From: Neelides folsomi
Taxonomy: Eukaryota; Arthropoda; Collembola; Neelipleona; Neelidae
Reading direction: 5' to 3'
Length of the DNA: 64,000 nucleotides
Assembly (NCBI GenBank): GCA_034687125.1
Contig: JAQGBZ010000123.1
Coordinates: 99,004 to 163,003 of the forward strand
This document shows, one piece after another, positions 1 through 56,158 of the stretch (positions are counted from its first letter, which is position 1; each line of letters begins with the position of its first letter). Made by a program: the position numbers and the translations under genes. The notes under the pieces are model-generated. The model was given only the letters and a program-made list of their open reading frames with translations, made no database searches and was not told where the DNA came from.

Positions 1-3000
1 ATGAGAAGAAAGTTATTATTCTTTTTACGTCTTTTGTTTCAACCTGACATTGTTTTCTTATTTTTACTGTTCATTCCTCTCTAGAATACGAAAATGAATT
101 AGGAATTTATCAGCATGAGGGAAATACTTATTAGTAATATGAGGATGATTTAGCATGGAAATTTTAACCCCGCACTTTAAAAGTTATTGTTATTGGGTCT
201 TGGAATCTGTGCGGAAGGAAAATGAATCTCCATATGATTATTCATAATGGTTAGACTTGTTTTTGTTTGGAATCCACTTTAACTTCAAAGATCTCTTGTT
301 CCACACCGGCCTGTCGCATTTCCAAATGGTTAACCCATTGAGCTGATTCATATTAGAAAAATACACAATAAGCAGTCCATGCATTTCTCGTTTCTCTCTC
401 AAATGAATCTGTTGGCCCATTTCTCGCCAGAATTGAACCTGGCTTTTGCTCCTCAGACTCACCTTCTCACACTCGTACTTTTGACACTGCTACAACAACA
501 ATGGAAACCTACTTTGATCACCCCCCAAGACCATAAGAGTCATACATACAGATATACTGTACCATACAGTCATATAATACAGATATTACTTCTTATATTG
601 TTTGTACCATATATCATAACTTTTCCAAATTGGAAATAATGCACTAACCTTCCCTACAATTTTACTATTCATAATATAGTAATATGTCCTTAGTATGATA
701 CAGTATTGTAAGCATGAGTCACAGGATGTGACATGTTGAATCAGACTTCCGTTTTTTCTTGTGACTTATGAGTCATCGAAGGAGAATTGAGCATGGACTG
801 CTCCAACACGCCAGTTGGGTTCCGGACATCAAGCCTTCCACAGCTTATGCCCAACTCGGAGATTCGATAAATAAAGTCTAAATTGAGTGGCCACTCGCAA
901 TTAAAGTCTAATAATTCATTGATTGATTAGATATCCGTTTCACGTGGTTAGTTAGGAGTGAGTCCGGGACGCTATAATCCCGAGGGAGCTTGGCGGGGGC
1001 CGCGGGGTTCCCCGCCTAGCTACAGTATGTATTACATATATATGAATTTATGTATGTATAAAGTATAAATGTATGCCGCCTATTTGATCATAATGTATAA
1101 AAACCGACTAAAAGGCCGAAATGTTCATGTTTACATTTCTGCATTTAGAGATGAAACATCCGTAATTTGAATTTTTATGCGAATCGTGTATTACGATTTT
1201 ATCTGTAATCGTGTGGCTATGTAAAGGGGATTGAGACGATGAGCAAATGAACAACAATGAAACTATCATATATGTGGAGGAAATAGGCATGAGTTTCGTA
1301 ACCTCATTTCAAACCGATGCATTTTATTTCAAATGTGGAAATTCACATAATGTCCTTTAAGGTTGGATGGATTTAAATGTTTGTGTTTATTTTGCCTACA
1401 TCTCACCACAAGTACATGCAAACAGACATATCTTTACTTACATTTACTTACATTTAGTTTATTCAATAGGCATACCCAAAATAAATAAATGCATTCAATT
1501 TTTAGGAATTTGGTATTTACAAGTATTTACCATTACGATCTAGAAATTTGCGGTTTAAGGGAATTGCATTACAGTTGATTTTTGTGTAATTTAGAATTAT
1601 TGATGGCACATAGCGGATTTCTCTATAAATTATCGCTTTTCTTTTTGTTACTGATTTTGGAAATCTTGTAAATGTATTTTGAAAAAATGTTCATTTGATG
1701 ATTTCCAATTTCGCAATTTCTAATTCACAATTTCCAATTCACAATTTCCAATTCATAATATTTTCGCAATGTTTTTCAATACATTTAATTTTCTTAAAAA
1801 TTAGCTTTTATTATTAATTGCAATGTATTAATTGGCCCTATTGATCAAAACTTGTTATGGACGTTATAAATCGTTAGAACTATTAATGAAACTGCCTTGT
1901 TATTATTTCCGATCGAGGGCTCGCTCATTTCATTTATTAAATTAAGAGTCGGGGAGAGAAAAGACCCAATAATGGATTTTTGTACTTGAGGAGATTCACG
2001 AACTCCTCTCTGAGTCATCACGATCCTGAACTCTTGAAGATCATGAAGATGGGAATTCATTCCTCTTTAGCTCACTATGCCATCCTGTATTCTACCCATC
2101 CTTCATAGGAAGAAAATGCAAAGCCGTTCTTTAGAACAACTCTAATTAGCTTTTTCTTTCAAGAATAGAATTTAGGACACTGTGCTTCCCAACTTCCCCA
2201 AATTCCCTCCTTAATGATAATTTTAATGCGGAGAGACAGAGAGAGATTCTTCAGACAATTATGCGAGTGTCTCTCTTGGCTCCCTCACGGTCTTTAATGC
2301 CCCGTCCACGTCGGTTGATCAAATTAAAAGGGACGAGGTTCTCGACATTATTCACACAATTCACACGTTTATTTTATGCAAACTTCCAGTTTAGTGACAC
2401 TTTGCCCACATCTTCCCATTAAAATACTTTCACACGGTATTTTATAAAGATTTGCGGAATCCAAACATAGCAACTTTTGTTTTTCCCGGAGCGAAAGTAG
2501 GAATAATTTACTATCGTGTGTGTAAACCCAATTGTACTTAAATTTAAAGAATACTTAAACTCCCTTAAACTTAGACAATTTTAAAGACAATGGCCCACAA
2601 ATGATGTGAGTAAACAAAATGTCATCTCCGGATGTCAAAAAGGATACCAGAAAAGATACCTAAGATTATCTAGAGAAGAGAAAATTATATATATATATAA
2701 GATGTATCATACTTACTCATACTTTTATGTATTTTATACACTTCCGAGAATTTCACGTGTACAGTCAAGGGTGATTAAGCATAGAAAGCCGGGGAGTTTA
2801 TGCCACATGGTGAATTTGAAAGTGTCACTTGTAAGTTTAAGAGAGATTCCACATGTAGAAAATTTTGAGCTTATGCATGAAGACTTCTTTTACTTGGTTA
2901 ATTAATTCATGTAAAGGTGGGTGGAAGTGGAGATCCGGGAAATGGTTTAAAGGAGCTTTGCATATTATCCACCTCTTGAGAACTCTCAAGAAGTTCGTAT

Positions 3001-6000
3001 GGATTTCCAATGTGAGTTAAATGCTCATGGGTGTAGGTTCATAACTACGTGTGTGCTACTCTTTGGGAACGATTACTCATAAAGGTTCGCCTGTTGACCT
3101 ACAAAATAAATTTTGGTGCTAATCACATGCACCCACTCTCACAATCTTCTACCGGACATTATTGACAAAAATGATGGAAAAAATAAACATGAACTTGAAC
3201 CTTTATTGGTTGTACAAAAGAAGGAGAGTTCTTAATTCCGCTTCTAATCATAGGCTTCAATTGACCATCCCCAGAAAACCAAAAATGAGTAATGAACATT
3301 CTTATTAGCACAATAACCGACTAAGGATGAGAACACAAATTGGAATTTATAAGTGCGGACATCATAGTATATAATATACGTATTGTACCATATACGAAAA
3401 TAAGTACCATACATACTGGTTAATAAGATATATAGTATTATTTTAATATGTATAATGTCAGAATGAATTTATAGGAATAATTGCATTGCGTATTCCATAA
3501 AGGTTGGTTGGGATGAACAAGTCTGCACTTGAGTATTGCGGGGGATGAGAACTGGCAAGGTGGTAGGTTTCGTAGTTGGTGGATTCTAACGGGACTCGTC
3601 CTCATTTCTATTCACTCTGCATGTATAAAATATACATTAGGGGATGCGTTTAATCTACCTGTATAAAATGTATTAGAGATATACCAAATGTATTAGATTA
3701 GTAGGAGTATATCTATACTTATTTTTGAAGATGTAAAGCATTGTGAATGATTCCTTCTGCCGCTAATTACACATTCTCCGCATTCTCCGGGATCCATCAA
3801 CGTCTCATCTTCACCTGCCGCCAACGTGACGGTCGGAAAGGGTCCGTTGTAATCTCCTACCCTCTTACCACACATTCTCTTCACCTAACCATATAACTAC
3901 AACGATTAAACTCGTGATGATATTCCTTATCCAAAAAGGACTTTCCTATGCCACTCCTACAAGGATTTTTTATATTAAATAGACAAGTATTTTTTGAGTG
4001 TCCTACAGCCGATACAGAATATCTTTAAATTCCCTAATAATTCTAAATGTAAGAGTATCGTCTTTTAACCATACAGATTAGTATTATATTGTATAGGTGT
4101 AGAGTGAGTGAAAACTAATATGTAGTCAATAAAGCTTAGAAAGTAATTAGATGAGGGTGAATAAAGGGGGTGGAGATGGTCCAAAGAATTTTAATACCTT
4201 TTTGAATATATTTTTTGCTTGGAGATATATTTAATAAGAAGCAATGGAGCGGGGTATGATCCGAATGTCTAGATATGAAGTTTGGAAAATAAAAATACAA
4301 TGGGTTTAGAGAGTTAGTATGAGGTGAAGGATGATGGAAAGAGTTCGTTGTTGAGCTTTTGTTAGAGCTGAAGGTGAAGGTCGGGCCATTAACTTCAAAT
4401 ACTCTTCTTTCGCTTCAACTGCTCCAATTACCTTCTCTGTGGTAAAGACCTCTTTGAACTCACTTCATCGTGCCTTTTTTAATCCTTAGGGACAAAAGTG
4501 GAATATTATAAAAATATGGTATAGGTAGGAATATTATAAATGTATATTTATAATATTGGTTGTATGTATGGATGGTTCCTTAAAAAATATAAAAATGAGC
4601 TTGTTTCTATTGTGTGTGTGGCGTGAGGATGATGGAATTTTCATCGTGCGTTTGGTCATTAACCGATTCGCCCTCAGTTTGGCTCTTAAACTCTTTGGAG
4701 TAGTTTGGAGTCAATGTAGCTGGTTTGGGCAAGAGAATTGGAGAGGGTTTAAGGAAGAAGGTGAAGGGGAATTGTTCATAAATTCACTCCTACTTCTGGC
4801 TCTGTTATTATTTTGTCAAGTTGCTCAGTCTGAGGTCAGGTTTAGTCCGTTTAGTTCTCTATGTAGACATAGGTATAAGCTAACAATAAGAAGGATGCGT
4901 AGGAATATTTTTTCATATTAACAGGTGAAGCTCCCACTGTGTGGGCAGCGGCAGGTGAGAATTTATATAGTGGATTTTCTTATGACTTTCCAGCTTCTTC
5001 TCCCTTCCTCTTCTTTCCACCCTGATAATTTCAAAAGTTAATTATTTTTACCTCCTATCCTTACCTTATGAAATCTCCTCTCTCTTTCTTCAATACATAC
5101 ACCTATAAAACTCCGTAATAAAAAGATACACATACAATGAACTCTAAGTAGATAAAGCGTGCATGCGTGTGTACAATTAAAATAATATAAATATATATAT
5201 ATATTTTTTTTATGTATCTTATAAATCTTCATATTTTAATGTTACTTTATATGATATATTGTCGACTGTAATAATATTTAAGTAATAAAATATTTTTTCA
5301 TTTTCATCATTTATGTAATAAATGCATAAGATAGAATTGACACTAAAAAGCTTTTAGAGTCTGTAGACATTTGATGTATAATGATAATTGTGCACAATTG
5401 TGAATGAATTGATCAATATTTGCTTAGTAAAAGATGGATCAGTGGGGAATTGGAGTGAAATGGGTGTTAAGACCATAAAGGAAACTTAATTTTGTGCCTA
5501 CAGCCATGAATATAGATTTGAGTGGAATTAGGGTAGAATCTCCCTCTGTGTTAATAAGTACTGTTAGGATGAGTCAATCGAACCGTGGACTTTTGGGTTT
5601 TCAAGTCACCGGAATATTCTCTTGAGATCTTACATTTCAAACCCGACTGCCCATGCGAAGATCAAACCCCTCATCTTCATCCTGTACAAATTACACACAC
5701 GAACTTCCACCCACGTCCATCTTCATCAAAGGCAAATTCTACCTTCAAGTCCATCATTGTATAAAGTCCTTAATTGTAAAAGAAGACACATATTACGGAA
5801 TATTGTCACATTAACCCATGCAATTGTTTCTTTGTTTATTAGCTAAGGCTTATTGTCGTTATTGTCACGTGTGGGACATTTGGTTGTAACAGAAAAAACA
5901 AACATTGAACTTTCATCAGATTGGAACAGAAAAGTGTCTAATGGAAAAAATGAACGTTAAGTTCAATGAATGGGAATGGTCTGGTTAAAACCTTTAACTT

Positions 6001-27883: not shown

Positions 27884-28003
27884 GCCAACGGCCATACCAC
27901 GTTGAAAGCACCAGTTCTCGTCCGATCACTGAAGTTAAGCAACGTTGGGCCCGGTTAGTACTTGGATGGGTGACCGCCTGGGAACCCCGGGTGCCGTTGG
28001 CTT
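27884..28003 (+). rRNA. 5S ribosomal RNA
   Basis: A 120-bp match to eukaryotic 5S rRNA. It starts GCCAACGGCCATACCACG, carries AGCACCAGTTCTCGTCCGAT, the internal A box GAAGTTAAGCAACGT and the C box GGGTGACCGCCTGGGAA, and ends GCCGTTGGCTT; the ends pair to form helix I. A T-run follows immediately. No base looks out of place, so it appears functional. It is a single copy rather than a tandem array and sits between the divergent ATMIN and AFG1L genes, on the same strand as AFG1L. Confidence 0.95.
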
Positions 28004-32162: not shown

Positions 32163-32820
32163 ATTGTTTAAATAATATTTTTGATTTGGCTAATAAACAC
32201 AATACAACATTTAATTTTGCCAATAAACAACATTTATTTCTCATATTCAATAAAACCTTCTAGATTTTGATTATTATAGCATTTGATAGCATAATATGAT
32301 TTATTAGCATAATAAATATTATTATAATATTTTTGAATGATTAAAAGTGAATATACTGCTATAATAAGCATTTATTTAATAATATTTATTATTAATTATT
32401 AATTAATCGAAGTTTGATTAAAATATACAACCTTACATTTCAATTTCATATGGAAAAGATATAAAAATGAATCCAATGAGGATATCCAGGGTATCATGAA
32501 ACTTGATCACCCCGTGCTCCTATCCAATTCCATTAGCCATTCAACACTCCCACAACCATTCCCACTCTTTATCCTGCTTATTGAAAAATCAGGTAAAATG
32601 GATATTTAATTTAATTTAACCTATAATTAAATATATTTTCCAAAAAATTAATGCAAATTCTGAAAGAGCGTATTAATTACTATCATAATAAAATTTAACT
32701 TTACTTATCGTTCAACATTCTTGGCCCCTATAATTGATTTTAGTTTGAAAGTCGGTTATGAAAAGAGAGTCTGGAAGTAGAAGGGAGAAGTTGAACTCGA
32801 TTTACCTTTGAGATCATACT

Positions 32821-33001
32821 TCAAAGGATCATTTCTTTAGTATGAGTGCTCAAACCCTTAGCCATCTTGGCGAAGGAACAAGCCACGATGAGGAGTCGTA
32901 GCAGCGGTCTCTGAGCGCGAGGCGGGCCAAGGTTTTCTGAACTTTGGTCTACGATGACCGTTCCCTCCGATTTCGGTCGGTAGGGAGGGGGCTGCTGCAG
33001 T
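32821..33001 (-). CDS. Candidate terminal exon of an unidentified minus-strand gene
   Basis: An open frame begins right after an acceptor (CCACTCAG) and runs 60 codons to a stop. It is much richer in G+C than the AT-rich DNA around it. The peptide includes QQPPPYRPKSEGTVIVDQ and RPLLRLLIVACSFAKMAKG. I do not recognise it. No partner exon was identified upstream on the minus strand, so this could also be a conserved noncoding or chance frame. Confidence 0.3.
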
Positions 33002-33739
33002 CTGAGTGGTTTGATAAATTCAATCAAAGATAAATAACCTTTACCTAATACCTTTTCCTCTTGTGCCTTATTTAACCCTCATTTAACATATCCTTTATTT
33101 AATTTCATTAAACTATCCTGTCTTGGATAGTGACACTGTATAGTTAATTAAGGTAGAATCAGAACAAGCCGTATCCTTCTAAATGTATCTTACGGAATCG
33201 ACTGAGGCTTTTACACTCAAGTTATCAATAAACTTCAAATACATTTTTTATTTATTAACCTTTCGTATAATACATTTCGTTATATTCTTTGTTTTAATGT
33301 TGCTTAATTCACCAATAAAGACTTTACAAACCTGATGGATGGTTTTCTTTTCGGAATCAATAACTTGTTAATTAATGAATTGTTTATATAAGTTTATATA
33401 CTCATTAAATAGGAAATAACCTATTGAATAACATTTCGTTTATTAATGATTGATTAAAGTCCCTGTTAATTATATATTTATAATAATTAACTAACTGAGC
33501 AAATTAATGGACTTGTACTAGTTTTAATAATAAAATGTCGAAATAGGAATTTGCATTTGATATTCAAATTTCTCTCATCTAAACTTTAGCCAATCACCGC
33601 GCGACTGGGGTTAAGTCATTAAAAATCATTTCTCAGTTATTTTTAAAATCATTAATATTTCTAGGTAATTGTTATTTATAAAACTTTAAGTTAACTAGAA
33701 CATTTAGATTAATTAAATAGTTAAAATGTTATATTAGGA

Positions 33740-43113: not shown

Positions 43114-46100
43114 ATGAAGTTCCCCGCCGTGTTTCTAGTAAGTAACCCTCTTTAATATTTACATTAACTACATATTTAAAATATTTTTATTGTAATACAT
43201 TTAAATATATTCTATATTAAAATATTTGTACCGTTCTTATCATTTAAATAATGTGCCATTTTTATTTTAACATGGTTCGAATTTATATAAATAAATTAAA
43301 TCATTATAAACATTATTTAAATATATTTTAAATAGAAAGGTTATCTTTGCCAACTATACTTTCCTAATAATTTTATTATATTTTAGGTCGCTATATTGGG
43401 AATAAGTTCTACGCCAAGTTCCCTTGCAAATCCCGGAGTCCGCTTCCCCGACATCCTTGCTCCAATTAGAAACATGTTTGGACCAAGACATGGAGGGCCT
43501 TCAGGACCAACTGGCCCCACATCAAGCGGATCAGGCCAAAGCTTTGGTTTCAACAACCACCAATTCCCTTCTAAGGACACCTCAGGAGCGGAAACTGGTA
43601 AACCACAAAGCGGAAGACCTTCCGGCCCTTATGACCACCATGGCGGCCACTACGCATCAAATGGTCCAAATCAAGAAGACCATAATGGATACAGGCCTTA
43701 CTATCCTCAAGGCCCAGAAGGTCCATCAGGAGCTGAGCAAAACCAAGTTAGTAGCCCTTATAGTCCATATTCACCTCATGGAGGACCTGGAGGTCCCGGA
43801 GGACCAGGAGGGCATTATTCCCCTTACCCACCACCGCCAAGTTCAGGAGGTCGTAGACGACCAGGACCAGGAGGAGATCATTATAGACAGACGAGACAAC
43901 ATGAAAATTCCTATCCATCTGATGAGTATCGTTCATACGGAGGACCCTCAAATGACGAAGGTGGAGCTCCTTCTGGATTTGGGTCTTTTGGTGATTTTGG
44001 CGGGCCAAGTTTTGGAAACGGAGGGTCAAGTCATGGAGGACCTCCAAGTCACGGCGGACCTCCAAGCCACGGTGGACCTCCAAGCCACGGAGGGCCATCA
44101 CACGGGGGACCACATGGTGAACCTCATGGACATGGAGGAAATGCACCAAGAAGACCAAGATATCCACAAGGATCCCACAGTCGCCCTTATAGAGTTTCTC
44201 GTCCTGCTTTCGCTCCTTCTGATGACGGTTATCTTCCTGGACCACCACCGGGTCATTCACATTCACACGGACCGTCATATGGTGGACCTAGTCATGGTCA
44301 TGGCCAACATGGACCTTCTCACGGAGGACCTTCAATAGGCTCCAGCAGTAGTGGATTTATCCCTCAAACCCAATCTCGTCCTTCCCCTTATAATGACGGT
44401 CCAAATGGAGGATTTGGCCCAAATGTGAACGGTTACGAAGAAGATCCACAAATTGTTACTCTTGACGATGTCCAAAGACCACATGGGTTAGGAAGACGAC
44501 CAGGGGGACTTGGCGGACCAGGAGGACCAGGAGGATTAAATCCCGGGGGATTTGATGACATTTACATGCAAGGACAATCCGGACCAGGGCAAGATATTTC
44601 ACACAATCGCCCAATTCCAGCATTCGAAGAGGGAGGGCCGGGAGGGCCAATTTATCGAAGCAACCCAATGAAGCCTTCAACTCGTCCATTTGGTTCGTTC
44701 CCATCCCAAGGGATGTCAAGTAGTGAAGAGAGCTTTGGAAAGGGGCCCAAATACATGTTTAAGCCAGTTTCTTCCTCCATGCAAACATCCGATGAAGTTT
44801 ACTATGGAAAGCCAATGATGATGTCCGCTTCTTCGGACTCTCCAATAAAGAAGGGAAGGAAGGGGAAGAAGCCGATGGGATTCTCCAAGAAGCCTATTGC
44901 CCTCACTTCTCCTAAAATGGAGAAAAGTGCAAGTGAGGGGACTCCTGCCATCGTCGAACCACAAATTGCCGAGTCGGCCCATGGTGGTCATCACGGTCAT
45001 CATGGCCATCATGGGGGGTTTCCTGACAATGAGCTCAGCAGCAATGGAGATAGAATCCTCTACCATGTGGCGGGACATCAAGGACCCTACAGTTACAGAT
45101 TCGGCTATGATACCGGCAAAGGGTGAGTTTACAGTCATTGAACATCTAATGGGGAGTTGTTGATAGAAGAAAAAGAACATTAGAAATCACATTCATATCA
45201 TTGGGAATCTAAGTGAGAATTGAAAGTAAAACTGCGGATCTTTGCACTTGTTAGATTTGAATCTTTTTATGAAAGGAGGAAATCAGAGTGGAACAATTGG
45301 AAAGGCTTTACTTCTTAAGAGGCAGGCACGGCAAGTAGGCACGAGACGGAGGGATCCTCTGCTTCGTTGCCCACACAGCCACACATCCATTCCTTCACAT
45401 CTACAAGGAATTAATAAGAAGGAGAAATCCCATAAAAACATCTCAACAATGCTTATAAAACCCATTCCTCCTCATTTTAATTATCACTCTATTTATTATT
45501 AATTACGTATTCCAATGTTGTTTGTTTATTCTGGTTATTCTCATTAGAGATAACCTCGAAGTTTGATGGCCCTTCAAGACGCTTTATTTTTAATAAGATT
45601 AACCTATGATTCTTACATGCAACTAATCTTACTTTAAATAAAGATGCAGGTTGTAATGTCAGTGCTCCAAACTCTAAGTTCATTAGATAAGCATTAGACC
45701 CCCTGTATTAATAATTTAAAGATGGAATTTAGATTCGGATTTACCTAATTATTGTTGTATTAAATGCACCGCCGTTATGCATATCATTTCTTAATAAAAT
45801 CTCTTAATCCTTATCTTCATACCAAAGGTATAAAATATATACCCAAATAAGAAAACTCTAATAATTTAAATGATGGGAGCAAGTTTGTAGTTTCTTTTAC
45901 TACAATACTTCTTTTATGCTAGGTTATAGTAATAAGTTTAAGGTCATTACTTTATGGAATACTATAGACGTCTTGTAAAAAAGTAAGCCAAGCTTATTTA
46001 ACCTAGTTATTAAAAGTCTGTGAAATTAGGATCGATTGATTTTGAATAAAAATTAGTGCAAGAGGTTCTTTTGAATCATCATATGATGACAATCGAAATC

Positions 46101-46700
46101 AAAAGACTTGGTTTATTATTTTTATTCCACTGCACCATGAGTGAATCTATGAGTTAAACAATGGAAAGAAAAATGAGAAAACGATGGATGGTATGCCACA
46201 AACTTTTTGTTTGCTCTCCTCCAATTCTTGACTCTCCCTATTCAAGGAAACAATTGACAATGGAATCTTTGCTCTCACTTTCCCTGCTTAAGTGGATTTG
46301 AGAAATGAAAAGATTAAATCTCTTCATGTTTAAATAAGAGCTAAATGTGATATGATGAATTGAGATTTTTCAACTAACATTTTGTGCTCAAATACATTTT
46401 ACATGCCTAATATAATTTTATTATAAATGAAATTTTTTCATTGACTTATTGTCAGGTACAATCGGATGTTTCGGCATGAGGAGAAGAACGGTAAAGGATA
46501 CGTGACTGGAAAGTATGGATTTTACGATAAGCATGGGAAATTGAACGTGGTGAATTACGAGGCAAGTTCGCGGAATTCTTAGTATTGCATATTAGCAGAG
46601 AGTGATATGAGCGATACAAGTCATTAACATCACTTACATTATTTACATTTTATTTTAGGCCCATCCTCAATATGGATTTAAAGCAACGAGAGGACACTGA
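43114..46700 (+). CDS. RR-type cuticle protein with Gly/Pro/His-rich body, 635 aa
   Basis: Four coding exons (43114-43137, 43387-45122, 46456-46561, 46659-46700) total 1908 nt. The signal peptide is split by the first intron: MKFPAVFL, then VAILGISSTP. The long exon 2 encodes low-complexity sequence: collagen-like GGPGGPGGPGG, a run of SHGGPP repeats around 44030-44110, and HHGHHGHHGG near the end. The C-terminus is a Rebers-Riddiford chitin-binding module built across three exons: GPYSYRFGYDTGKG, then YNRMFRHEEKNGKGYVTGKY, then LNVVNYEAHPQYGFKAT. It would be secreted and bind chitin in the cuticle. The last intron has a GC donor (GCAAGT at 46562-46567). AATAAA at 46895-46900 is a likely polyA signal. 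A Gly/Pro body longer than 500 residues is unusually large for the family. Confidence 0.9.
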
Positions 46701-46900: not shown

Positions 46901-47551
46901 ACATAAAATGAATTTTTGTGTATTTCTGCATCATGCATTTCATGATTAAAGATTGGACATTTTTTTAAGTTCGAATATTAATATTTATCAAAATAATTCA
47001 TCGTTTATTTACAGTCAAAATTAAGAACACTTGGTCAATTGAAATTATCAATTTATATTATTTATAAAATAAAAGTCTGATGAAAAGTCAAAAATAAAAT
47101 ATGTTCATATATCTAATATTCGTATATTTGTTAATCTTCATTAGTAAATCGTAAATATGTAAGTTTTAGGTTTACAGAATTTTTGTCATTTATCTGTATT
47201 GATAACAAGAACAAGTAATAGAAAGAACTAATGTACAAAAAATCTAACTACATATCATTATAATTATACTACATTAAAACTCATATTAATTATAACGAGT
47301 ACAATTCAGTGTTCTTATAAGCACTATAATTAAATTTAATTAACTAATTAAGTCTTGGGAGAAAAGTCAGTAAAAGGCGTACAAGATTTTCGTTTGAGTT
47401 GTAAAGTCAGTCAAGTCGTTTTGAGTCATTGTCTTTAGGAAGGAAATTGAAAGTCTTCGTCAGTCCCTTTATTTCGCTTTGTCCGAGAAATTAAATAAAT
47501 TTAAATTTTTTGTCGTTTGAAAAGTCAGAGAATAAAGGACTTACAAGAGTC

Positions 47552-50500
47552 TCAAGTGCTGATTAGCATTTCAGTCTGCTCACTCGTCTCCTCAGCCGCC
47601 TCCGCGGCTCCCACATTCTCTGGAGAATAAGGAGTCGTGGGGACCGGAGGAGTCGGAGAAATCAAGGCAGGTCCTGCACAAGGCATTATCTTAGTACTTG
47701 TCAGAATGTGCGACGGTGTTGGGACAGGGCTAGGGTCAGTGGATAAAAGCATTGCTCGTTCCTCCCTCATTCTCATCCTCAAAGGATAATGAGTCGGACG
47801 GCCTGGATTGACCCCATTTCCTTTATTCTCTGACAATGGGTTCGGAGTAGTTGTCGAGGGTCGGAATCTGATCCGGCCTCGCTCTCGAGTCACCGTCACA
47901 GAAACGCTACTACTATTACCTCTGCGTACAAATTGCGGCACTCGCGAGCCATTGGCGTTAATATAAACATTTTTCAAATTACTCTGCTGTGGATTACTCT
48001 GTTGGTTTCTCCTCTCCTGCTGCTGTTTCTCCGCAAGAGCCACCATCATCCGCTCTTTGAGGATCCCAGCTCCTGAGAGTCGGATCCTTGTGGGTTCTTC
48101 CGTTGTTGAAGTTGTGGGTTGGAGAGTTGAAACCGAAGCATTGACGAAAATTGGCCCACGTCCGCTGCTTCGCTCCGTCATTATCAAAAGAGGATGATTT
48201 TCTCCATAACCTCCCCTATAACTCCTAACCTCTGGCCCGCGAGTTTTCTCCACACTTTGAGAAGATTCCCTCTCTCGCTCTTTCTGTTGTCGTTCGCTTT
48301 GTGGAGTTTGGAAAAGTCCACCTTCAAAAACCTCCGTTTTGCTTTCTACCTCATTTTCTGCCTCTGGTTCTTCCGTTGGAGTCTCATCGTCTTCTTCTGA
48401 AGCTGAGGCTTCTTTTTCTTCCTTATAAAATGGCTGAACTCTTGGTCTCATATGAGGCGGTCGGCGGATTTGGGGTCTTTGAGGGAAGTCCCGATAGTAA
48501 AGTCCCTCTGGTCTTCTGATGTTTTCAGCTTGTTGGAATCGGAATGGTCCGTGGTGGAACCGAGGTCTTCGTTTAATGAATTGAGTTGGCTTTGAAATTC
48601 TTCCTATACCTTGGTTATCCCATGGCTTCCAGTTCCCGCCGCCATCAGAATGAAGATGGTAAATAATTGTGGAGGGTTGTGATATGTATGGCTGCATTGC
48701 TGGAGTCTGGCGAAGAATTTGAGCCTCTAATGAATTCATCTGTTGAGGCATCATCTGAACTTGTTGACGGTTCAAGAGATTCATTTGCGTCGGTTGTTGG
48801 CTAAATAATGGTTGTCTCATGAAATTGGCCATATTATTAAACTGTTGGGGATTGTTCATGACTTGCTGCTGTCGAACCATGGAAGCTTGAGGGATGTAAT
48901 TAATATTTGAATTCCTGAGGAAAGGAGGAGGATTGTAAATGGCAGCTGCTGCCTGTAATTGCATTGGATCAATATAAGAAGGAGCAGCAGAATAAACTGG
49001 ATTCATTATTGAAGGGAGGGCCTTAAGAACTTTAAAACCCGTAGCTGCTCCTGCCGTGTAAGTTACAGTTCTTCGTACTCCATCAGGATCAATATAAGAA
49101 TAAGTTCCCATTACAGTTCCATCAGCATCTGCAGATTCTTTTCGTTTAGCATCATCCGATTTATAATTAAAGGCGTAACTTCCGTCGGTGGCACCTTCAG
49201 TAATTTCATCACCTCCTAAGAAAAGATTTTTAATAATTAATTATAACATTTAAAATTATGTAGATTAAATGGCTATAAAACACTAATGATAATAAATTAC
49301 CTTTATTGCCCTTTCCTTTCCCCTTCTTTCCTTTATTGCCTTTGTTTGCCTTGTTCCCTTTGTTGCCTTTTCCTTTGGTTGCACCTTTTCCTCCCTTGGA
49401 ACCACCCTTGTTGGCTTTATTTCCTCCTTTCTTTCCTGCACAACTTCCACCTGAACATCCTCCGTTCCCACGATTTCCTCCTCCTCCACCTCCACCACCA
49501 CCCTCTTCGGGCCAATCTTCCTCTTCATTTTCTGGCCAATCTTCTTCATCTTCAGGCCATGCCCCTCCACCACTTTCGCCCTTTGCTCCTCCACCTGTTA
49601 AAATTGAAAATATGCTTAAAATAAGATTCCAATAGTTTTTATTTCATAATTAGGAAACAGGCGGAGCGGGCATAATGAGGTCAAAGGGTTAATAAGTACA
49701 ATGCTATAGTGTTTTTTTCCGTTTACCACAACTTCCTCCGGAGCAACCTCCTTTATTGGCGCCATCCCCATTGCTATTCCCACCACCACATACTCCTCCA
49801 GAACAGCCTTCAAGTTTGGCGGATTCCTCAATATTACTCCCAGCCCCACAACTCCCTCCAGAGCATCCTTTCTCACTAGGCCCTTTGGTTCCCTTCTTTC
49901 CCTTCCCTTTCCCTCCACACCCGCCACCTGAACAACCTTTCTCTTTCGAACTACTTTGACTTTTTTTATCACTACACCCGCCACCGGAACATCCCTTGCT
50001 TTTAGAAGATTTCCCTTTACTTTTCCCATCACTGCACCCGCCCCCTGAACATCCCGATTTTTTACCTCCCTTCCCACCCTTTGCTCCTTTCCCCTTTCCA
50101 CATGCTCTTTCAGAACATCCCTTTTCTCCCTTTTCGGCAGATTTCTCCTCACTTTTATTTCCTTTACATGCTCCACCTGAACAACCTTTACTTTTTGAGC
50201 CCTTTCGTTTGCTCTTAGAACTTTTTCCTTTACTTTCGCCTCCACATTTCCCACCTGAACATCCTGGTTCTTTGGTTTCTTCCTCTTTCTCTCCTTTGCT
50301 ACCTGCACATCCACCCCCTGAACATCCCTTGCCTTTAGAACTCTTTCCATTCCCTTTGGAACTTTTACTTTTTCCTCCGTTGCATTTCCCTCCTGAACAA
50401 CCAACTTCTTTAGTTTCTTCTTCTTTTTCTCCTTTACTACCCGCACACCCGCCACCTGAACAACCCTTACTTTTTGAACTTTTTCCTTTGCCCTTTGAGC

Positions 50501-53500
50501 TTTTCCCTTTCCCGCCACTACAATTACCCCCAGAACACCCTGCTTCCTTTGGTTTTTCTTCTGTCTCACCTTTACTACCAGAACACGCTCCACCTGAGCA
50601 TCCTTTACTTTTTGAACTTTTTCCTTTGCCTTTTGAGCTTTTCCCTTTACTTTTTTCTCCCCCGCATTTACCCCCAGAACATCCAACTTCCTTTTCAACT
50701 TCCTCTACCTCTCCCTTACTACCTGAACATCCTCCGCCCGAACATCCTTTCTTTGAGCCTTTTACTGAACTTTTTCCTCCTCCTCCGCAACCAGATCCTG
50801 AACATCCCTTACTACTCTTGGTTCCCTTTGCCTTATCACTTTCCTTATTACATCCCCCGCCCGAGCATCCTTTACTACTCGACTTCTTTCCCTTGCTCTT
50901 CCCACCAGCGCATCCGCCACCGGAACATCCCTTGCTCTTTGAATCCTTTCCCTTGCTCTTCCCTCCCCCGCACCCCCCATCACTACACCCCTCTGCCTTA
51001 TCTCCACCCTTTCCCCCGCCACAATTTCCTCCCGCACATCCTTTTTCCGTTTCACCTTTCTCCTCCTTTTCCCCTCCAGCGCAAGCTCCGTCTGAACATC
51101 CCTTAACCTTAGAGCCCTTGGTTTTCCCTCCCCCACATCCGCCACCGGAGCACCCCTCGACTTCAGCACTTTTCTCCTCCGTTTTCTCACCTCCACATCC
51201 TCCACCCGAGCACCCGACTCCAGCCTTTGAACCTTTCCCCTTCCCCTTCCCTCCGCATCCTCCTCCTGAGCATCCGCCTCCTTTTGCACTATTCCCGCCT
51301 TTATTTCCTCCTCCGCATCCTCCACCAGAGCATCCCTTCCCCTTGGCCCCTTTCTCAGCCCCCTTCCCTCCTCCACATCCTCCTCCAGAGCAGCCACCAC
51401 CAATGGCCCCTTCACCTCCCTCCCCTTTATCGCCAGTAGGACCTTTTGAATGGTTTCAATATTAAATGATGCCCATGGTTCCAAAGGTGTTTCTTTCTCC
51501 TCGGAACCATTACCTTCTCCCTCAGTAAATTTGATAGGATTGGTCGAGGACATCCAACCGGAAACAGATTCTTGAGGACTCCAACCTCCCTTTTCTATTT
51601 TCTCATCCGCCCATTCCTTAAGAGCGCTGCCGCCACCGTCAGGAGGTCCAACAGGATCCCCAGGGGGATTGAATTCCCCACCCCCCACTGGACCAACTTC
51701 ACCGCCAGCCTCTCCACCAGTATCCCCGCCGCCACCACAAGCCCCACTCGAGCAACCCCCTTTCCCCCCTTTACTGCCTTTGCTTCCTTTACCTCCTGTT
51801 TCCACAATGTTAGATGAACCTAAACTCAAATCGTCCTCACCTTTTCCACCACATGAACCGCCAGAGCAGCCGGCTCCTTTTGCGCCGCCGCCTCCAGATT
51901 CTGCCTCATCTCCTTCCCATCCTCCTCCTCCTCCTCCACCACCGCCGCCTCCTCCGCCACAGTTTTTCCCTCCACAACCACCACCTTTACCTCCCTTATT
52001 TCCCTTGCCGCCTCCTTTGTTTCCTTTATTTCCACCCTTATTCCCTCCCTTCTTTCCTTTATTCCCCTTGCCTTTCCCTCCCTTCGAACCGCTTTCTTCA
52101 CTTGTTTCCTCTTCTTGAGTGAAGCCTTTTTGAGCTCCGGCCATGTAACGAAACTTTCTCCTCTTCCCCTCATCGTCGACAAATTCGTAGTAGCCGTTGA
52201 CATTTCCATCTTGGTCGCTCATTTCGGTCCGTATCTGCTCATCATTGTCGAACATGAAAGAATATGAGGCATCATTGTTAACACCCTCTTCATCCTCATC
52301 TTCATCATCATTCTCCCATGGATCGCTTCCTCCCTCAGGGTCATTAGCCCATCCGGTGTTGCTTGAAGGGCTCCTTACCATATCTTCACCATTCCACACT
52401 GCATTCGTAAGCCTCTTCATCAACTCTTCGTTCTTCTTTATAGTAATGATGATGGGCTTGGTGTTTCCTTTGGCTCCGCTTCCTTGGATGTTACTTCCTT
52501 TTCCGTCGTTGTTGTTCCTGCTTCCGTCGTTGGTGTTCCGACCTCCGTTGTTGTTGTCGTTGTTGTTGTTTCTGTTGGCATTGGTGATTGTGGCTCTGGT
52601 GGGTCCTTCGTTGGTGCTTCTGGTTCCAATGTTGTTTCCACTTTTGGTTTCCTTCGTCTGTAGAGGATTCTCCGTCCAACCTTTTTCCCCACCTTTCCCA
52701 ATTGTTCCTGGCTTTTGCCACTCAGGTTTTGTTTTAATATCCTTGGCTCCAACCGGAATACTTCCTCCTGGTTTTTCAATTCCTTTCCATCCATTTCCTC
52801 CAGCATTTTCTGCTGGAGACCATCTGGTCCCAGCTCCGGGTGATTTGGTTCCAATGGTGGTTTTTGGCCAGTTTGTTGTTGAGGGGTTTGGCCATTTGGT
52901 GGTGGTTGGTTCTTTGATTCCTCCATTTCCACCGAGACTCGAATCCACTTTGGATTTTCCTCCATCCCAACTTGGACTTGGACCCACCTTTGGTCCACCA
53001 TTCCATCGACGACCCGAATCCTCTTTCGAAGCACCTTCCCTTCCACGTCTTGAAGCGGGATCCTCTTTAGATCCATTATCCCAGCGGCGGTGGGGTCCGT
53101 CTCGTTCTTTATAACTTCGCTCATCACTTTCTTCTTTCTTTTTCTCCCAGACACCACGGGGGCCGCCACGGTTGGGGCGCTCGTCGTCCCACTCTCCTCG
53201 CTCAATCTCGTTTTCCCATCCCACTCCACGGTTGGGACCACGGTTGGGGAAATCTCTGGAATTTTTAGGGTCGAATTCTCTCGTATCTCGGGAGTCTCTG
53301 GAGTCGGGGTCGTTTCGAGAGTCACGAACATCTCCGTCGTCCCAACGGCTTCTCCTTCCGTTTTCGTCCCGTTCGCTCCGTCCGCCATGGCGACTGTCGT
53401 CCCATTCTCCGCCACCGGGTCTCCGTCCAAGACTAGTTGGGCCGCGTGGTCCGCCTGCATTTCCGGATCCCCGCCTATTGTCCCTATCCCATTCTTCAGG

Positions 53501-54442
53501 CCCTCGACTACGAGAGTCAAATTCCCAACCGCCAGGCCTCCCCGCAGGTCGAGCCTCATTTCCGCCGCGTGGGTCGTCCCGCCAGTCCTCCTCCTTTTCA
53601 CGCTCTCTGGGTAGATTGTCACTTTTCCACTGCTCTTGGAGATCCCAGCCGTTTCCCCCGCCAGCCGCTTTCCAATCAGTGGTAGCTGAAGCATGGGCTC
53701 CTTCCTTTGTATCACTCACAAAGTCAGAATACTTTTTATCTCGTTCCTCTTTCCGGAAGTTGTAAAAGTTGGAATTCTCCTTATCGCGGCCAGTTGTGAG
53801 AGATTCGCTTCCTCCTCGTCTGTCACGGAGAAGCAATGGAGCTGGAGAGATGGATGATTCGTTCCTGCCAACATGTCCTTCTTCGGACGAGGCAGTCGCC
53901 ACTGTTGTAGATGGAGATTGGGATGACCCGTATGAGGCCAACGGGATAAGTAGCTAATTCATAAATTATGGCTAATTGGTTTTCTTAAGTACTATTAAAC
54001 AATATTTTATTTATAATAAATATGCCAAATACTACCCAAATAACTGTGTAAAATTCACAAATGTTTGCTTTATGATTAATGATAAAGTTTGATTGAAAAT
54101 TGAAAAGGACAAATTAATGAATGATAATTGACTAGCCATATACCATGTTATGTAAATATAGATTTCTACTATCAGTATGTTAAAAAATTAAGTGTTTAAA
54201 ATCAAATATAAATACAAATTGTCAGAATTGAGTGTCTGTACAAATGTCAATATACAAACTATACAAAATAGTATACAAAATGTTTTTCAATTTTCTATCT
54301 ATGGATTTGAAATTAAAGAGAGATATTATTATGTTTTGAAAATGTAAAAATGTAATGTAATTTAAAAGAATTAAAAATAGTTAGAATAGTAGGAATGTGG
54401 AGAGAAATTAGTATGAAATACACTTACTAGAAGTTTCCACAT
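47552..54442 (-). CDS. Giant double-RR cuticle protein with a long Cys-Gly-Lys repeat, ~2042 aa
   Basis: Five coding exons (54442-54428, 53953-51514, 51442-49727, 49594-49301, 49215-47552) sum to 6129 nt, all GT-AG with matching phases. Signal peptide: MWKLL, then LLIPLAS. Residues about 15-560 are charged and low in complexity (many R/D/S/G, for example DSRDSRDTREFD). A first RR chitin-binding domain (about 563-615) contains ASYSFMFDND and GYYEFVDDEGKRRKFRYMAG. Next come some 870 residues of Lys/Gly-rich sequence with about 30 units of the form CSGGGC, and an acidic patch WPEDEEDWPENEEEDWPE. A second RR domain (about 1498-1555) has GSYAFNYKSDD and GTYSYIDPDGVRRTVTYTAGA. The last ~490 residues are Gln/Asn/Pro/Arg-rich. 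Likely an extracellular cuticle scaffold. Minus AATAAA lies at 47473-47468. The remaining risk is that two genes have been merged, though the reading frame argues against it. Confidence 0.8.
49727..51442 (-). repeat. Tandem coding array of CSGGxC units (exon 3 of the giant cuticle gene)
   Basis: The 572-codon exon is open across its whole length in the spliced frame and contains 27 copies of a degenerate unit, K-G-C-S-G-G-x-C-x-G-x-K, spaced roughly every 15-30 residues. The position between the cysteines is usually Gly but can be Lys, Ala, Asn, Ser or Val. Spacers are rich in Lys, Gly, Ser and Glu (for example KSSKSKGKGK, GEKEEETKE). The other two minus-strand frames are also open for long stretches, a by-product of the repeated codons. 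About three related units lie in exon 2 (51720-51975) and one in exon 4. Confidence 0.88.
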
Positions 54443-54541
54443 GGTGAGAGGCCCCAGATGCACACAAACCCGCATAAATTGCGGGTGACTGTGATGAATT
54501 GAAGTCCTCTTTGAAAGTGGAAGTGTCGAAGGACCTTTTAC

Positions 54542-54549
54542 CTTTTATA
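54542..54549 (-). promoter_or_regulatory. TATA box of the giant double-RR gene
   Basis: TATAAAAG on the minus strand lies 100 bp upstream of the ATG at 54442, giving a start site near 54515 and a 5' UTR of about 70 nt. Confidence 0.7.
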
Positions 54550-54973
54550 GACAGGGAGAGCGAAGGGCATCTTTGGATCTCACCTGGGCATCCGCATAAA
54601 GAAGAAATCAAGTGAGGAATCTTCTTGTTGTCGAGGGCGGCGGAGCTTCGTCTGCGGCCGACCATTTAATCATCCACCATCTACTTCGCCCATTGTCTCC
54701 TCCTTCCGCCGCGAGAGAACTTGGATTGTTTCATGCTTCAGTCGGACTCGGTGAAGCGACAAGGCGTCTTAAGCCCATTTTACGTATAACACTACGTTTA
54801 TTAACAGTAATACAAATATGAATGAAGATCTTTTTAACAAGATCTTTTAATCTCAACACTGAAGACTTGATTACGACAACTATTATTATTATTATCATCA
54901 TATAAAGAGTTCTCAATTAAATAATGCCATTTAGTCATTCTTTATTTTCTTTATAAAACGAAATCAGCTTCGA

Positions 54974-56158
54974 TCAAAAGAGGAGAGGAATGACTGCTTT
55001 TCTTTCCTTAGGATAACTCGCCCCAAACTTCTCGGTGTAAAATCTATGATGCTGACAAGCCCGGATGCCGAGGAACATAGTTGTGAACAATGCAAACACC
55101 ACCTATGTTCATACAAAATTTTTTTAACAATTACTCCTAGATTCATCATGTAATTTTTTATTGGCAATGAAGATAATTTTAATAATATTACCTGAGGAGT
55201 TCCAAGAGTTATAAGAGCAAGTCCCCACCATTCAACAATTTCTCCAAAATAGTTTGCCCCTGATACGTAATTAAAGAGTCCACCATGTGGAATGATGTAT
55301 TCTCCTTTATTTGCTCTTTCTTTTTTCTTTTTCAACGATAAAAGGATTCCATCATGATAAATGTTAATGGCCATACCCAAAATAAAAATGGCAATCCCTA
55401 TAAACATAAAATTAAATGTTTAGAATGAAAATATTAAATCATTGAGAAAAGGTGCATTGTTATATAAAAATATGGGTTTAATTGGCATTACCGACAAAGA
55501 AATTGGGCGATGTTGATATTGACGAAACGAAGAGGATATGATGCCCTTGGAGGATCCCGTTAAAGGTGCAAAAAGTAAATGCAAAAAGTGACACGGCAAT
55601 CGGAGTTGGTCTCGCGTTGCTTCCGATCCGCATAGGATACACCATACTCCTGTAATAAACCATTTTAATTATTTATTTCTTCCTTTCTCTCGTTAGGAAT
55701 AAAAGGATGAACCTTTGAACGTAGTGAGCGACGAAAAGAAGGACGGCGAGAGTATTCTTCCATTTCTCATTAATTTGACAGGGAACTAGTAACATGAAGG
55801 CAAGTGGAACGGCTACAGAAGGAACTTCTTGAATCTTTTCAAATTAAACAATAATTATTATCTAAAATAGTACTAAAATTTTTATTCATGCTCACTACAC
55901 ATTAAATTATTTGATTATTGTATTATATTTATGTGTGTTTATTACCATCCAAGAAACTTTTGCGTTGAATGCTGGACCATAAAGGCTATTCGAATATCTT
56001 CCATAAGGAGCAGGCATAAAATAATTCCATAAGCTAATAATCACGGTACCATAAATGGCAATTGATGTCAGTCGATTTGAGAGTTCCAAGTCGGAATTAG
56101 CCCCAAGGGTCTTGTACAGACATCCGAATATACTTCCCTCAAGAACAGATGAATCCAT
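54974..56158 (-). CDS. SRD5A1: Steroid 5-alpha-reductase (3-oxo-5-alpha-steroid 4-dehydrogenase), 275 aa
   Basis: Five exons (56158-55946, 55834-55713, 55649-55492, 55397-55192, 55102-54974) sum to 828 nt. The protein is hydrophobic with several membrane segments and is slightly longer than the vertebrate type 1/2 enzymes. Recognisable family blocks are VSWMIQEVPSVAVPLAF, YPMRIGSNARPTPIAVSL, INIYHDGILLSL, IIPHGGLFNYVSGANYFGEIVEWWG and the C-terminal ACQHHRFYTEKF...YPKERKAVIPLLF. The family reduces the 4,5 double bond of 3-oxo steroids with NADPH in the endoplasmic reticulum; in arthropods the physiological substrate is uncertain, possibly ecdysteroid precursors or other sterols. The symbol marks the type 1/2 group rather than strict orthology. 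A minus AATAAA at 54946-54941 lies 28 bp past the stop. The gene lies between two structural-protein genes but is not itself one. Confidence 0.93.

Follow-up and report, generated by a model that had tools for sequence, protein, structure and literature searches.

The stretch of DNA analysed here, the window, comprises 64,000 nucleotides of Neelides folsomi (positions 99,004–163,003 of contig JAQGBZ010000123.1, in an assembly of 75.1 Mb and 840 contigs). On its minus strand lies a gene whose spliced translation yields a single frame of 2042 amino acids in five exons, running from an ATG at 54442 to the end of a stop codon at 47552 and specifying, in this order, a signal-peptide-like start, an RR domain, 31 C-x4-C units, a second RR domain and a Gln/Arg/Pro-rich tail. 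We refer to the first, N-terminal RR domain as RR1 and to the second as RR2; these names are distinct from those of the RR-1 and RR-2 subclasses. An earlier note on this DNA had described one frame of about 2042 residues, and its coordinates, exon phases and length were all reproduced exactly; its long Cys-Gly-Lys linker between two RR domains is supported by the sequence.

The four introns (474, 71, 132, and 85 bases; phases 0, 1, 1, and 1) are all GT-AG, and every donor starts with GTAA. Exon 1 (54428–54442) contributes 15 coding bases that encode MWKLL, the start of the signal peptide, and ends at a GTAAGT donor. Exon 2 (51514–53953; residues 6–819) holds the remainder of the signal peptide, a segment rich in R, D, W, and N, the acidic RR1 and units 1–3 of the array, and is followed by intron 2 (51443–51513; 71 bases, GTAATG…CAAAAG), the weakest joint of the model. 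Exon 3 (49727–51442; 1716 bases) encodes 27 C-x4-C units, and exon 4 (49301–49594; 294 bases) an acidic WPE-rich patch, unit 31 and a Gly-Lys-Asn run; both exons are symmetric, with phases 1-1. RR2 and the tail up to the stop codon are encoded by exon 5 (47552–49215). The N-terminal part up to RR1 (residues 18–555) contains no Cys and 23 Trp; in the C-terminal tail there are 43 Gln, 14 Tyr, and a single Cys.

The start of the protein, MWKLL/LLIPLASYGSSQ, resembles a signal peptide as judged by eye and is split by the first intron after the 15-base coding exon. In Anopheles CPR genes a short first coding exon that interrupts the signal peptide is usual, with a length of 3–36 bases and a median of 12 (PMC2259329), and the first coding exon described here is typical in that it falls within this range. 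A motif scan of 47000–55000 places a TATA box (TATAAAAG; 54542–54549, minus strand) with its start 107 bases 5′ of the ATG, one further TATAWA 5′ of the ATG at 54955, and an AATAAA poly(A) signal (47468–47473, minus strand) about 80 bases past the stop codon. The TATA box, the short first coding exon and the poly(A) signal thus bracket a single unit. An alternative in-frame ATG upstream would add 11 residues, in a context that is poorer by eye. Taken as a whole, a secreted layout is supported by the sequence.

The spliced protein was searched against Pfam with hmmscan (threshold E 0.01), and it matches a single family, Chitin_bind_4 (PF00379; curated cut-off 25 bits), in two stretches (E 3.9e-25, 88.4 bits). 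RR1 (52097–52279, minus strand; residues 564–624) scores 38.0 bits in the exon frame alone and 42.4 bits in an unspliced genome scan, and RR2 (49028–49189, minus strand; residues 1498–1551) 60.3 and 64 bits, respectively. Both matches that had been predicted for the spliced protein were therefore found, but it is RR1 that matches more weakly (38.0 versus 60.3 bits), and not the second domain, which had been called divergent. The CPR consensus begins with an aromatic triad Y/F-x-Y/F/W-x-Y/F and ends with G-F/Y (PMC2259329). The triad is present in both domains (YSFMF in RR1 and YAFNY in RR2), as is a terminal GF, at residues 615 and 1548. By the sequence tests run, the gene product belongs to the CPR (Chitin_bind_4) family.

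Are the two RR domains copies of one another? RR1 and RR2 share 44% identity over 52 ungapped residues. The genome scan gave 39 Chitin_bind_4 places, RR1 and RR2 among them, and a tree was built from 28 domains including these two, after exclusion of those 11 of the 37 other matches that fell short of 45 residues. Among the 27 other domains compared, the nearest to RR1 is RR2 (38% over 61 positions), and the ending AGAxxGF that the two have in common is absent from the 37 other RR matches of the genome, although exon ends truncate some of these. The nearest relative of RR2 is a domain in another gene (L019; 46% over 57 positions). Read for the RR-1 or RR-2 subclass, the tree puts RR2 in a mixed clade of 13 (support 0.778) and RR1 at a position with a support of 0.0, and it is silent on an RR1–RR2 sister pair. 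Duplication within the gene is a likely, not a proven, origin of the pair.

Next to the gene, on the plus strand at 43387–46700, lies a convergent neighbor that by eye looks like another RR cuticle gene. It comprises a 579-amino-acid Gly/Pro/His-rich frame ending GPYSYRFGYDTGKG, and VTGKYGFYDKHGKLNVVNYE and AHPQYGFKATRGH are found in exons farther along; introns would interrupt its RR domain, and its last intron is seemingly GC-AG. The genome scan gave no RR match for this neighbor and the 579-amino-acid frame has no Pfam match.

The distance between RR1 and RR2 is 873 residues, and this linker is dominated by the C-x4-C array. We count 31 units, 24 of them strictly CSGGxC, where about 30 CSGGxC units had been announced; three lie in exon 2, 27 in exon 3 and one in exon 4, so that introns 2 and 3 both fall within the array. 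For residues 641–1500, 2000 shuffles produced an average of 4.3 pairs and never more than 11, against the 31 present, and a chance origin was rejected on this basis. The distance from one Cys to the next within the array is 5 in 31 cases and otherwise at least 12. Residues 626–1490 contain 62 of the 63 Cys of the protein, all of them in C-x4-C pairs, so that nearly all thiol chemistry falls within the linker. The same stretch has 314 Gly, a net charge of +66 and neither His nor Tyr, and in silico its side-chain chemistry is shown by this absence to be limited to thiols and amines. Tandem Repeats Finder detects a higher-order tandem duplication on the minus strand (50173–50648) with a period of 138 bases, equal to 46 residues or two units, in 3.4 copies. 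A genome search with 248 residues of the array, in which the best candidates are scored, gave at least four matches, those listed all being at this locus. Solved structures yielded nothing beyond one weak hit (E 0.1), to a protein of an unrelated kind.

The copies of this double unit allow the reading frame of the array to be assessed. We compared four copies of 46–48 residues (residues 1052–1238) in all six pairs, counting codons with a single change; since the pairs are not independent, the counts give a direction and not a p-value. The frame of the gene has 101 synonymous versus 18 non-synonymous differences, a ratio of 5.61, whereas the ratio is 1.56 or less in the other five frames (synonymous to non-synonymous, 19:127 and 5:141 in the remaining sense frames and 7:112, 89:57, and 6:140 in the antisense frames). 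Because the copies differ mostly synonymously in the frame of the gene, this in silico comparison shows the array to be translated in that frame and to be under purifying selection at the protein level. On the plus strand, a 501-amino-acid open frame with HPPPEHP repeats runs antisense to the array (49960–51465). Differences between array copies amount to 0.15, 0.17, and 0.62 at codon positions 1, 2, and 3, but this test is blind to strand because, from the coordinates, the plus-strand and sense frames share their third positions. The codon test disfavors a coding role for the antisense strand of the repeat (101:18 sense against 89:57 antisense), and the 501-amino-acid frame is best explained as a shadow of the sense frame.

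Does the frame that joins RR1 to RR2 hold at intron 2? Its donor is good (AAG/GTAATG), and its acceptor, ATTCAAAAG, is without a pyrimidine tract. With a GC content of 0.38, the intron lies between the other introns (0.15–0.31) and the exons (0.50–0.52 for exons 2–4 and 0.46 for exon 5), and 71-base windows at a GC of 0.38 or less also occur within the exons (41 of 2369 in exon 2, 54 of 1645 in exon 3, and 144 of 1593 in exon 5). No stop codon interrupts this stretch when exon 2 is read on into it, which makes a one-base gap in the assembly a workable alternative: by hand, such a gap in the neighboring A run would equally join the frames and add 24 residues. In a search of 51700–51250 for frame-joining donors that fit GTRAG, GTAA or GTRnG, the other donors were those at 51688 and 51681, both GTGGGG. 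Frame-joining GT-AG pairs of 40–300 bases number 152, with a fair donor in 27, and RR1 and RR2 stay in one protein under each of the 152. Whether an intron or an assembly gap is assumed, the sequence reads as one frame.

The joint bears on a second explanation, in which exon chaining has wrongly fused two adjacent cuticle genes, one with RR1 upstream and one with RR2 downstream. Such errors have a precedent, as several Ensembl models of Anopheles with multiple RR domains proved on manual annotation, guided by TATA box and initiator, to be separate genes (PMC2259329), and the weak acceptor of intron 2 and further AATAAA strings inside the gene would fit with two units. Yet AATAAA strings are expected in exons rich in Lys and Asn, and the Cys array, which crosses introns 2 and 3, is common to the exon of RR1, to exon 3 and to the exon that precedes RR2. 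Introns 2–4 are moreover short (71, 132, and 85 bases), and three-frame translations inspected by eye reveal in them no ATG that opens a hydrophobic peptide continuous with the following exon. A promoter scan for TATAWA alone finds this motif, between ATG and stop, in intron 1, twice in the N-terminal coding part and inside RR2, and none just 5′ of exons 3–5. We therefore consider two genes improbable; the locus is very probably one gene, and the single gene joining two RR domains of the earlier note is likewise supported by the sequence.

Within one gene, the splicing of the array may still vary. Because each of the symmetric exons 3 (1716 bases) and 4 (294 bases) has phases 1-1, skipping either keeps the frame, and splicing could set the length of the linker without breaking it, although this is a prediction only. 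The predicted products have 1470 residues and 9 Cys without exon 3, 1944 residues and 61 Cys without exon 4, and 1372 residues and 7 Cys without both. The repeat exon might accordingly be spliced out in most tissues or stages, in which case the usual product would be a shorter protein with two RR domains and few Cys, and the long form a special isoform. The frame symmetry permits this, but the purifying selection on the array implies that the long form sees enough use for selection to maintain it, and we regard predominant skipping as unlikely.

What could a secreted protein of this layout do? RR domains bind chitin and secreted Cys oxidize, and the ring closed by a C-x4-C disulfide has the size of that in oxytocin and vasopressin. 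We propose that the product is a bivalent chitin linker, one secreted protein of the CPR family that has a structural role in the cuticle and is cured through thiols, and we put the probability of this reading at roughly 0.6. RR1 and RR2 would bind chitin on the same or on neighboring fibers, held apart by a long, expanding Gly/Lys/Ser/Glu linker with its 31 C-x4-C hexapeptides. The Cys would oxidize outside the cell, either within a unit, as in oxytocin, or between chains, and transglutaminase or quinone links may form in addition at the Lys-rich linker and the Gln-rich tail. Such a protein would tie chitin fibers together elastically once oxidation had cured it, and by analogy a bridging of fibers fits the layout. 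Cross-links based on His, as proposed for wing-scale proteins (PMC8062583), are impossible in the linker because it has no His.

Several of the observations above weigh against this proposal. RR1 is very acidic (net charge −15 over residues 556–625) and divergent, and for that reason may not bind chitin at all. The nearest relative of RR2 lies in another gene and the position of RR1 in the tree is unsupported, so that the tree lends no backing to a sister pair. Intron 2 lacks its pyrimidine tract, several Anopheles models of this kind were split, and skipping of exon 3 would leave a protein with only 9 Cys.

Alternatively, the array could serve chiefly to bind or store soft metals (Cu or Zn, for example) through its thiolates, with the RR domains holding it in the cuticle. 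Thirty-one Cys pairs in a flexible, hydrophilic linker make this conceivable, and the array had indeed been called metal-capable. Metallothioneins, however, have clustered CxC or CxxC spacing. Here the spacing within units is always C-x4-C, with Cys-to-Cys distances of 5 or at least 12, no clustered CxC or CxxC and no His in the linker, so that the array fails as metallothionein-like, and an oxidizing extracellular setting favors disulfides. Metal binding thus seems possible but is not favored, and we see little chance that it is the chief role. Returning to the bivalent chitin linker, the 62 paired Cys between two RR domains offer a direct test of a disulfide-built cuticle in this lineage, and the protein is a design from nature for a material that bridges chitin and is cured by redox chemistry. 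More tentatively, it might represent a linker class that is new to the CPR family, with a duplicated chitin-binding domain as a bivalent clamp, a thiol-cured and still growing C-x4-C chain whose length in-frame exon skipping can set, and a cuticle that would owe its hardness or elasticity to disulfides instead of His or Tyr quinone chemistry.

Other features were noted around the gene. Just upstream and on the same strand, 54964–55419 matches Pfam Steroid_dh (3-oxo-5-alpha-steroid 4-dehydrogenase) and DUF1295, and the plus strand carries a 5S rRNA gene (27884–28002) and a U3 snoRNA gene (32810–33010). Elsewhere in the assembly, a mitochondrial contig (C742, 15157 bases, 31% GC; loci L014 and L015) has trnL2 between cox1 and cox2, which is the pancrustacean order.

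Finally, how does the protein compare with known systems? Its likeness to CPR proteins lies in the two Chitin_bind_4 matches above the cut-off, the aromatic triad, the terminal GF and the signal peptide split by an early intron. It differs in size (2042 amino acids, against a mean of 169 and a range of 87–837 without signal peptide in Anopheles), in Cys content (3.1% against 0.03% in the Anopheles CPRs; PMC2259329), and in the combination of two RR domains with an array of Cys pairs. No RR-(C-x4-C)n-RR protein was described in the literature found, where “R&R” is unsearchable as a word and such papers may be missed. Protein database searches, restricted to 0.55–1.75 times the length of the query, returned no match at E 0.001 among 362 and 7998 candidates of about 1123–3573 amino acids and 8000 of about 309–983; this absence does not speak for uniqueness, because ordinary CPR proteins, with their mean of 169 amino acids, fall outside these limits.

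The claim that no described protein has this layout is thus not contradicted, if weakly so, but the arrangement of two RR domains cannot by itself carry it. Some insect proteins contain two or three RR domains, and in the same genome a locus that we call L044 (C424:7000–12000; 2287–3227, minus strand) has two RR matches about 500 bases apart. A 98-base GT-AG phase-1 intron joins them into an open piece of 280 residues, in which Pfam recognizes Chitin_bind_4 in two stretches (E 6.5e-18); the 400 bases examined for a first exon contained none. Two RR domains per chain are probably not unique to the gene in the window, and it is by its Cys array that this gene stands out.

Among cuticle proteins defined by repeated, spaced Cys pairs, the CPCFC proteins are similar in that respect, with a C-X5-C motif in two or three repeats (PMC12426002, PMC10138643). 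Membership in this family fails, as all 31 pairs here are C-x4-C, no Cys-to-Cys distance is 6, the repeats number 31 instead of two or three, and RR domains are present. Drosocrystallin, a peritrophic matrix protein cross-linked by transglutaminase through Lys-Gln isopeptides (PMC4646701), is likewise a chitin-matrix protein that is fixed covalently, and Lys and Gln are plentiful here in linker and tail; the most striking chemistry of the present protein is instead that of the thiol. Membership in the CPAP/peritrophin-A group fails as well, since the six-Cys ChtBD2 (PF01607) gave no match within the E 0.01 threshold. The multi-domain proteins of the peritrophic matrix are built from the peritrophin-A fold with mucin-type linkers, and hence differ from the protein described here in their chitin-binding fold and in the Cys array that its linker carries. 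With several chitin-binding modules per chain and a proposed bridging of chitin fibers (PMC4646701), they are nonetheless its closest working analogue.

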